DNA of 64,000 bases from Ruminococcus sp. GTDB taxonomy: Bacteria; Bacillota; Clostridia; Oscillospirales; Ruminococcaceae. Both the position numbers and the translations under genes were made by a program. Below the pieces are notes generated by a model. The model worked only from the letters and a program-made list of their open reading frames with translations, was not told where the DNA came from and did no database searches. Numbering within the stretch: position 1 is the first letter of the stretch; each line of letters begins with the position of its first letter. The stretch is taken from the NCBI GenBank assembly GCA_020861185.1, contig JAJBSV010000012.1, positions 1-64,000 on the forward strand, in the 5' to 3' direction. This document shows, piece by piece, positions 11,803 through 41,071 of this stretch.

Positions 11803-12078
11803 ATGTATAAAGACTACAGAGAAAGATACAAGGCACAATATGGGTACACTGACGAAATGCTTGTCATAGACGACTTTATGGAAGAAGCTTGTCAAAGGCA
11901 TTATATTGTTCACATTGTCGATCACGATGGAATAGAATACACAGGTAAAGCAAGTGGTTATTGCAAAGCTGATGATGAAGATGATGGGTTTGCTACCATG
12001 TGCATTGACACAACCGATAAAGGTGGTTGGTGTCTCGGAGTAAACGAAATTGCAAGCATAGAAAAGCTCGATTCATGA
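11803..12078 (+). CDS. hypothetical small protein (91 aa)
   Basis: Intact ORF, tightly coupled to the upstream gene. Confidence 0.6.
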   Translation: MYKDYRERYKAQYGYTDEMLVIDDFMEEACQRHYIVHIVDHDGIEYTGKASGYCKADDEDDGFATMCIDTTDKGGWCLGVNEIASIEKLDS

Positions 12079-12100: not shown

Positions 12101-12129
12101 TTGCAATTTCAACTGCAATGTGTTATAAT
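12101..12129 (+). promoter_or_regulatory. sigma70-type promoter TTGCAA-17-TATAAT
   Basis: -35 TTGCAA at 12101-12106, 17-nt spacer, -10 TATAAT at 12124-12129, just upstream of a riboswitch-like leader. Confidence 0.8.
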
Positions 12130-12137
12130 GTAATTAC

Positions 12138-12232
12138 CATAAAGAGTGTGCGAGGGACAAGCCCGTTGACCACACAGCAACCTGCCGCAAGGTAAGGTGC
12201 TAAAGCTTGATTCGATGGGACGGAATAGCTTT
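12138..12232 (+). promoter_or_regulatory. SAM-clan (SAM-I / SAM-I-IV-variant-like) riboswitch aptamer
   Basis: GAGUGUGCGAGGGACAAGCCCGUUGACCACACAGCAACCUGCC-GCAA-GGUAAGGUGCUAA: P2 GUGUG/CACAC with kink-turn-like CGA/UUGA, GCAACC, and AAGGUGCUAA as in S-box aptamers. Confidence 0.8.
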
Positions 12233-12234
12233 TC

Positions 12235-12266
12235 AGCTCTCATCGAAACGATGGGAGCTTTCTTTG
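12235..12266 (+). terminator. riboswitch expression-platform terminator
   Basis: AGCTCTCATCG-AAA-CGATGGGAGCT followed by TTCTTT. Upstream TTCGATGGGA can pair with TCTCATCGAA as an alternative antiterminator. Confidence 0.75.
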
Positions 12267-12297
12267 TGGGAAAATAATCTTACAAGGAGTGTTAATA

Positions 12298-12795
12298 ATG
12301 AGAGAAGGAAGCATTACAACAGGAAAGGTTTACTATGACACGGGAGAACTCTATTTTGAGGGAGTCTATTACGACGATTTGTGGAGTAAAATTCATCCTT
12401 GGCAGCCACTCGACCTGATTAAGGGTGTTTCGTACTATAGAAACGGTAACAAATACCGAGAAGGTAAGTTTCAACGTGAAGGGCTACTTGAAGGAAAGGA
12501 GTACTACAAATCAGGAGCATTGAAGTTTGAAGGCGTTTTCAACGACAAACGCAGGAGTGAAAGCTACAATAAAAGCGGAATCATTACAGACGAAGACATC
12601 GAGGTATCTCCAGATGGAGAAGAAACTATCCGATGGGATTATTTCGGACCTTCGTACCCGGTTGAAGGCAAGTTTTATTCAGAAGATGGCAAACTTGTCT
12701 ATGAGGGAAAATTCAAAGTAATCCATGATGGCAGTTTAAGATTTCCAATAGTTGTGTATCCCAAAGGATACGGAGATCTGGAGGCAATATTATGA
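12298..12795 (+). CDS. MORN-like repeat protein (GKVYYDTGELYFEG...)
   Basis: Repeated G..YY.TG.L.FEG / G.SYYRNGNKYREGKF units; SD AAGGAG before ATG 12298; directly under the riboswitch. Confidence 0.75.
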   Translation: MREGSITTGKVYYDTGELYFEGVYYDDLWSKIHPWQPLDLIKGVSYYRNGNKYREGKFQREGLLEGKEYYKSGALKFEGVFNDKRRSESYNKSGIITDEDIEVSPDGEETIRWDYFGPSYPVEGKFYSEDGKLVYEGKFKVIHDGSLRFPIVVYPKGYGDLEAIL

Positions 12796-13178
12796 AAGAC
12801 CGCAAAGACAGATCTGATTGGATTCAGTATGAAAGCTTATCCGAAATTAATCTGAAGAGGGTTGAGAGAGGGTTGCAGGAGTTTTTTGAGAATCCTTATT
12901 GGAAAAAGCACTATGAAAAAGCCCCGTCGGACATTTGCAAGGAGTACATAGCCTTGGGCTTCGCCCGAAGCGTTGACTTCTTCGATTGTAAAACGAACGT
13001 TGATAACAGCGGTCTGAAACAACGCAAGGACGACCTCATCGCCTACTTTGACATTGAGGACTGGCGGTACACCATCATCAACGCCGGTCACTACATGGCG
13101 AAGATAAATCTCTGTAAGCAGATGGAGGAATACTTCCCCGGTTGTGGGAACTCGAAGTTTATTTATGGGTTGGAGTAA
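12792..13178 (+). CDS. hypothetical protein (128 aa), co-transcribed with MORN-like gene
   Basis: Start codon overlaps preceding stop (ATGA); ends at a terminator. Confidence 0.65.
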   Translation: MKDRKDRSDWIQYESLSEINLKRVERGLQEFFENPYWKKHYEKAPSDICKEYIALGFARSVDFFDCKTNVDNSGLKQRKDDLIAYFDIEDWRYTIINAGHYMAKINLCKQMEEYFPGCGNSKFIYGLE

Positions 13179-14445: not shown

Positions 14446-14488
14446 AAAGAACCCCAGCCGACGCCCAAACCGGGCATCGACTGAGGCT
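14446..14488 (-). terminator. intrinsic terminator (minus strand)
   Basis: CCTCAGTCGATGCCC-GGTTT-GGGCGTCGGCTGGGG, 15 pairs allowing G-U, followed by TTCTTTTTTT. Confidence 0.75.
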
Positions 14489-14630
14489 CTCTTATTGTTT
14501 TTCAAAACCGCTTGAAAATTGCGATATTTCGCGCGATGCGTCTTTGTGACAAGCTATACGGAAATATCTCGTTCCATGGCTCTGAGGGGCAAAAAATCGT
14601 CATTTTCGACCTTTATTCCGACAGTAAATC
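14474..14630 (-). other. candidate oriT / conserved structured intergenic element, copy 1 (ICE)
   Basis: Shares CGATTTTTTGCCCCTCAGAGCCA and CGAGATATTTCCGTATAGCTTGTCAC with 40908-41062; lies just after the Cys-rich VLP gene; contains GATATTTC...GAAATATC inverted repeat. Confidence 0.5.
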
Positions 14631-14797
14631 TCATCTTCAGAACGTAGCGAGACATAATGCGGGCAGTCTATGAGGATAGTCCGGAAGCTCTGTTTGCAGT
14701 TGTGGGAGCAACGGCGACAAGTCTCATTGTACTTGCGCCGCCCGTCACTGTCTAAGTAAAAGCTCCATTTGAGTTTCCATTTTTCGCTTTTGCTCAT
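14600..14797 (-). CDS. cysteine-rich VLP-domain protein
   Basis: YNETCRRCSHNCKQSF...CPHY pattern typical of this ICE-associated family. Confidence 0.7.
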   Translation of the reverse strand: MSKSEKWKLKWSFYLDSDGRRKYNETCRRCSHNCKQSFRTILIDCPHYVSLRSEDEIYCRNKGRK

Positions 14798-40907: not shown

Positions 40908-41071
40908 TATTTACTGTTGGAATAAAGGTCGATTTTTGCGATTTTTTGCCCCTCAGAGCCACGAAGCGAGATATTTCCGTATAGCTTGTCACGAAAATAC
41001 TTCGTTCAAACTGGCACAATTTTCGAGCAGTTTTGAAAGGCACAAATAACCTCAGTCGATGACGGCTGAGG
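40908..41071 (+). other. candidate oriT / conserved structured element, copy 2 (nested IME), ending in hairpin
   Basis: Near-identical cores to 14474-14630 (opposite strand), ending CCTCAGTCG-ATGA-CGGCTGAGG. Confidence 0.5.

Follow-up and report, generated by a model that had tools for sequence, protein, structure and literature searches.

A P4-less SAM-I riboswitch sub-type with a putative second, translational lock precedes unannotated accessory genes in Ruminococcus and other Clostridia

SAM riboswitches are feedback valves of methionine genes. The 64,000-nucleotide stretch of Ruminococcus sp. DNA analyzed here (the window) contains an RNA that an earlier note, made from the letters alone, had assigned to the SAM clan, and the genes behind it are unusual ones, which raises the questions of what this RNA is, in which direction it would act, and what its genes are for. 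The first regulated gene (12298..12795, + strand) encodes a 165-aa protein, and the second (12792..13178, + strand), whose start overlaps the first gene's stop, encodes a 128-aa protein of a recurrent unannotated family, termed family C here. The description of the first product as a MORN-repeat protein holds only in part: it has one match to MORN_2 (PF07661, 25.6 bits, E 1e-5), a single repeat that misses the Pfam gathering score of 29.6 bits. Its predicted structure is beta-rich and of low confidence (pLDDT 54). The 128-aa protein gives a confident predicted all-alpha model (pLDDT 90, 11 sequences), for which a comparison with the PDB returned no fold match (best E 3.4).

Across the whole 64-kb window, cmscan reports a lone Rfam match over the cut-off, to the SAM family RF00162 at 12134-12257 on the + strand (57.8 bits, E 9.1e-11; gathering cut-off 44.4 bits). 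No family of the SAM clan scores better, one weaker overlapping clan match having been dropped by cmscan without its name being shown, and the clan assignment is thus borne out. R1, a covariance model of ten relatives with the window in its training set, places the aptamer at 12134-12222 (+ strand) with 113.3 bits. Judged from the relatives, the aptamer ends at 12222 rather than at Rfam's 12257, the Rfam alignment apparently overshooting into the terminator. Within it lie, all on the + strand, P1 (12137-12140/12215-12218), P2a (12146-12150/12171-12175), P2b (12154-12156/12162-12164), a pseudoknot (12158-12161/12206-12209), and P3 (12176-12201). Inspection of the sequence shows the kink-turn in P2, the GCAACC motif, and AAGGTGCTAA.

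The identification of the aptamer draws on comparison as well as on these motifs. Sequence and covariation over 67 unique members agree on a P2 divided by a kink-turn and on a pseudoknot, PK-1, between L2 and J3/4. The pseudoknot covaries among these members (CAAGC/GCTTG, CAGCC/GGCTG, CAGGC/GCCTG, CAGAC/GTCTG, CTGAC/GTCAG, and CTGCC/GGCAG), and compensatory changes in P2 can be recognized by eye, the window type having GUGUG/CACAC and one relative (L045) GACG/CGUC. The SAM-contact core, comprising the A-U/U-A pairs of P1 and GCAACC/GGUGC, is present and is aligned in the window's Rfam match, and SAM is presumably the ligand, to which the metK linkage of some relatives (see below) lends indirect support. 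P1 itself is short, and many members have mismatched pairs at its positions 8 and 3; its positions 6 and 7 are invariant in 64 of 66 members, and position 5 is C-G in 30, U-A in 15, and U-G in 19 of the 66. The P3 loop varies even among near-identical relatives (GCAA, ACGA, GAUU).

In its kink-turned P2, PK-1, GCAACC/GGUGC core, terminator/antiterminator logic, and score over the Rfam cut-off, the RNA resembles SAM-I (RF00162). The sub-type to which it belongs departs from SAM-I in a favored register without P4, in a promoter that abuts P1, in an extra hairpin at the Shine-Dalgarno (SD) sequence, and in targets that are mostly orphan rather than methionine genes. The relatives share its compact layout, in which the pseudoknot strand CUUG is followed by a linker of 3-5 nt in place of P4 and then by the 3' strand of P1. 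While SAM-I normally has P4, SAM-IV (RF00634) is without it and carries a hairpin directly after P1 (PMC6890682). The window sub-type has this order in common with SAM-IV, but SAM-IV also has a PK-2 to the P3 loop, a P5, and another P2 turn. Among the relatives, the variable P3 loop has no conserved partner in the 3' tail that would form PK-2, and with RF00162 giving the best clan score, membership in SAM-IV was rejected. The SAM-I/IV variant (RF01725), which is of the same clan and has the same ligand core, possesses P4, no PK-1, and an undivided P2 (PMC6890682), whereas the window RNA has a divided P2 and a covarying PK-1; this assignment was likewise rejected. In the same genus, ordinary metK S-boxes such as L033 belong to the same class and occur in the same genomes as the sub-type but possess P4 and a separate downstream terminator. 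The one other S-box in the genome of the window, on a different contig and upstream of a metK-like gene start, is of this kind, with P4 and a separate terminator.

R1 splits the sub-type from the ordinary metK S-boxes, with about 20 of 398 genomes of the family scoring at least 58 bits, followed by a drop to about 50. At the level of the class it was found in 23 of 392 genomes (R1, E <= 1e-12), and there are matches across the order as well; its frequency is roughly 5% of sampled Clostridia genomes. Beyond these, a P4-less switch (RF00162 59.8 bits, R1 63.7) precedes a gene with a DUF4116 domain in Mycoplasmopsis cynos (NZ_LR214986.1; L193 1198-2452), where it is the lone R1 match in the record. 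In the samples taken, the sub-type is tied almost without exception to unannotated families, in Clostridia, one phage, and one mycoplasma. Our search of the literature, mostly outside subscription journals, found no report of a P4-less sub-type or of its cargo links, and both the sub-type and its near-obligate tie to unannotated accessory genes appear, from these comparisons, to be new. One genome (L109; G564:C9 and G564:C36) has three copies of the riboswitch, two of them about 5.4 kb apart on C9, and the copy examined sits before an 80-aa gene.

The elements through which such an RNA would act are all present as the earlier note had described them. A sigma-A-type promoter on the + strand (12101..12129) consists of a -35 TTGCAA at 12101-12106, a 17-nt spacer, and a -10 TATAAT at 12124-12129. 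At least five of the six bases of TATAAT occur within 24 nt 5' of P1 in 53 of 67 members, mostly 4-6 nt away; with the -10 conserved just 5' of P1, the RNA should therefore start at P1, and transcription is expected to begin near 12136, at its first bases. Downstream is an intrinsic terminator (12235..12266, + strand), in which AGCTCTCATCG (12235-12245) pairs with CGATGGGAGCT (12249-12259) in a hairpin of about -15.7 kcal/mol, followed by TTTCTTT. It competes with an antiterminator (12211..12247, + strand) formed by TTCGATGGGA (12211-12220) and TCTCATCGAA (12238-12247), a duplex of about -14.8 kcal/mol that includes the P1 3' strand in its 5' arm.

With a probability of about 0.8, we regard the window RNA as a SAM-I (S-box) riboswitch of the P4-less sub-type that turns its genes off at plentiful SAM. 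RNA polymerase would start at P1, and SAM bound to the P1-P2-P3 core would lock P1 (12137-12140/12215-12218); the locked P1 would hold the 5' arm of the antiterminator, so that the terminator hairpin at 12235-12259 could form and transcription would stop. When SAM is scarce, P1 would open and 12211-12220 would pair with 12238-12247, blocking the terminator and allowing transcription of the MORN-like and 128-aa genes. The motif GATGGG, however, occurs twice, at 12214-12219 and again inside the 3' arm of the terminator, and this duplication permits the opposite logic. In that SAM-ON scheme, SAM would stabilize a full SAM-I fold in which the antiterminator serves as P4 and the terminator's 3' arm (12250-12256) provides the 3' strand of P1, so that the terminator would be blocked and the genes made at high SAM. 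P4, absent in the upstream register, is indeed supplied by the antiterminator in this alternative one, which is the register in which Rfam aligns the window as a full SAM-I; P1 of the window pairs equally well with either copy (-4.6 both), and a fold with the antiterminator enforced closes P1 using the downstream copy. Many other members read differently. In four of those that precede metK (L057, L064, L065, and L190), P1 pairs with the upstream copy at -6.3 to -6.7 kcal/mol and with the terminator's 3' arm at only -2.7 to -4.7, and pairing with the downstream copy is also clearly worse in L062, L175, and others. Of the 60 members for which a terminator was called, 34 favor the upstream copy as the partner of P1 and 13 the downstream one, with no difference in the other 13, counts that are approximate as the calls were made mechanically by a script and a few are clearly wrong by eye. 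In stepwise folding of the window leader, P1 with the upstream copy appears once the transcript reaches 12221, the antiterminator at 12245-12253, and the terminator at 12261.

For a switch directly before metK, SAM-OFF control is the physiological expectation, and the fact that some metK-preceding members have a well-formed P1 only in the upstream register supports ordinary SAM-OFF attenuation; one layout is common to the whole sub-type, the metK leaders included. Because of this P1 pairing, in the metK-linked members and across members, and because upstream-copy P1 folds before the antiterminator, we would prefer SAM-OFF to SAM-ON by about 7 to 1 on sequence grounds, and we consider SAM-ON control quite improbable. 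The SAM-OFF logic of the earlier note, with genes that come on when SAM falls, is supported.

A third reading would take the RNA for a decayed S-box that has lost its response to SAM and is retained as a plain attenuator, as its short, imperfect P1 and the missing P4 of the upstream register might suggest. We think this very improbable indeed, since conservation and covariation of the core, the pseudoknot, and the competing helices extend over 67 members and as far as a mycoplasma, and true decay looks unlike the window. Such decay is exemplified by a stump on Psychrobacter plasmid pA53P4 (L196 2500-2560), upstream of a hypothetical gene, which resembles the same aptamer; it was rejected as a full unit, having only the 5' half (P1, P2), no P3, and no Rfam match. 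A unit that appears to be decaying was also seen in L117 (G716:C11), where no terminator was seen and a family-A frame (defined below) has an early stop codon.

Simple SAM-OFF control does not account for a further element, which the earlier note did not mention. Between the terminator and the start codon, UCUUUGUGGGA (12261-12271) and UCUUACAAGGA (12278-12288) form an 11-bp hairpin (12261..12288, + strand; -11.5 kcal/mol) in which the SD sequence AAGGAG (12284-12289, + strand) is paired. Hairpins of this type occur in most cargo leaders, and their arms co-vary (GTCCTC/GAGGAC in L124, GCACTC/GAGTGC in L050, TATGCTC/GAGCATA in L140). The predicted pairing probability of the SD has a median of 0.97 among 53 cargo leaders, compared to 0.55 in 40 ordinary metK S-boxes, which have no consistent SD hairpin, and 0.45 in 150 background genes; it exceeds 0.8 in 77% of cargo leaders versus 9% of the background, and p-values for these differences overstate independence as the cargo leaders are kin. 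By hiding the SD, the hairpin would leave a read-through message poorly translated unless it were opened. Placed on top of the terminator, it is beyond what simple SAM-OFF control explains, and the double lock of terminator and hidden SD suggests products that need to stay off until SAM falls.

The genes behind the switch mostly occur as solitary ORFs with no match in Pfam, and we grouped them by alignment into family A (about 100 aa, ...RIDYxKY...), family B (about 145 aa), and family C, that of the window's 128-aa protein. Profile searches of the PDB with families A and C found nothing credible. When proteins were sought by themselves, family A was found at R1-match sites in seven of seven cases and family B in two of two (297 genomes each), and ten of 12 family-C loci have an upstream R1 match (81-112 bits), five of the ten being congeners of the window; the profile seeds were themselves riboswitch-linked, which biases these counts upward. 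Not all cargo is orphan. Eight members (L057, L064, L065, L067, L126, L127, L183, and L190) lie directly upstream of metK, and hydrolases resembling N-formylglutamate amidohydrolase (FGase, PF05013) recur as cargo of the sub-type, immediately downstream of the switch in L069, L175, L178, and L184 and as second gene in L046, while in L135 an FGase-like domain is fused to a family-C domain. These calls are by Pfam (PF05013) for L069 and L184 and by eye for L175, L178, L046, and L135. In L184 (1501-3086), from a 1.2-Mb genome, the riboswitch, an FGase-like gene, and the metK that it overlaps form one operon. The window has no FGase-family gene, and in the literature searched we found no paper tying this family to a SAM riboswitch. 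Through the FGase and metK links, the orphan families are loosely connected with methionine/SAM physiology, and the mostly small accessory targets suggest a SAM-shortage response; that FGase-like cargo might free methionine from formylated forms is a guess. The switch indicates when the cargo would act, which makes cargo function directly testable.

The genomic setting bears on two further proposals of the earlier note, that the locus lies on a mobile element and that its genes respond to phage SAM-degrading enzymes or methylation stress beside a McrBC system. To one side of the window unit lie genes for McrBC, Sel1, and a RelA-like HD protein, and to the other a conjugative element (about 14.8-48 kb) with ArdA, ArdC, TopB, a CD1108-type protein, TraG, TrbL, VapE, and a serine recombinase. 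However, a chromosomal island of McrBC, Sel1, RelA-like HD, riboswitch, MORN, and 128-aa genes is common, whole or in part, to five congeners, and the stretches of these relatives that were compared have no homology to the conjugative element, so that placement on a mobile element was rejected for the window locus. Other units inspected stand alone amid ordinary or housekeeping chromosomal genes, such as one (L089) by pyrimidine genes, by eye. An intact promoter-riboswitch-SD hairpin unit (95.3 bits) does occur in Ruminococcus phage NatCom_28274 (PV036439.1; L191 11827-12297), with a family-A gene behind it; it runs on the opposite strand to its main neighbors and lies near a phage DNA methyltransferase gene. 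A second record labeled as phage, MT835503.1, was rejected as a carrier, its neighbors (tryptophan synthase-like, ABC transporters) looking chromosomal. The unit of promoter, aptamer, terminator, SD hairpin, and gene thus appears portable, and it would seem to move, though not by way of the conjugative element in the window.

The phage setting, the McrBC upstream in the window, genes near L097 that by eye resemble a Dnd cluster, the patchy distribution, and the second layer of repression would all suit a role in phage defense or counter-defense, in which an invader's destruction of SAM would be the signal for the unit, and phage or restriction the target of its cargo. Such a role is a matter of what the cargo is for and is compatible with the SAM-OFF mechanism, but we consider it unlikely: most neighborhoods inspected consist of ordinary chromosomal genes, metK and FGase-like hydrolases are among the recurrent targets, and no cargo matched a defense family in Pfam. 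The earlier note's link to SAM-degrading phage enzymes, methylation stress, or McrBC is unsupported: some 7 kb separate McrBC from the unit, and the two were seen near each other only in close relatives. The links to metK and FGase-like hydrolases speak no less for methionine/SAM physiology than for phage or McrBC. More broadly, the unit of promoter, P4-less switch, SD hairpin, and gene may be a horizontally mobile expression cassette, which puts small, unrelated accessory proteins under one shared trigger, SAM collapse, with a translational lock in addition, that occurs in phages and bacteria and whose cargo makes up an undescribed response to SAM shortage, be it metabolic rescue or conflict, a tentative view with the odds somewhat against it.

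Several smaller features were seen around these units. Just 5' of the window unit (11803-12078), a gene missing at the corresponding place in relatives encodes a 91-aa protein with a weak match to the Rho modulator Rof (19.8 bits, below the Pfam cut-off). In L037, repeats lie 3' of the unit, the translation of which reads like a CRISPR array. Similar sequences in opposite orientation, at 14487-14637 and 40909-41060 of the window, flank the transfer genes of the conjugative element and are possibly end or promoter repeats.
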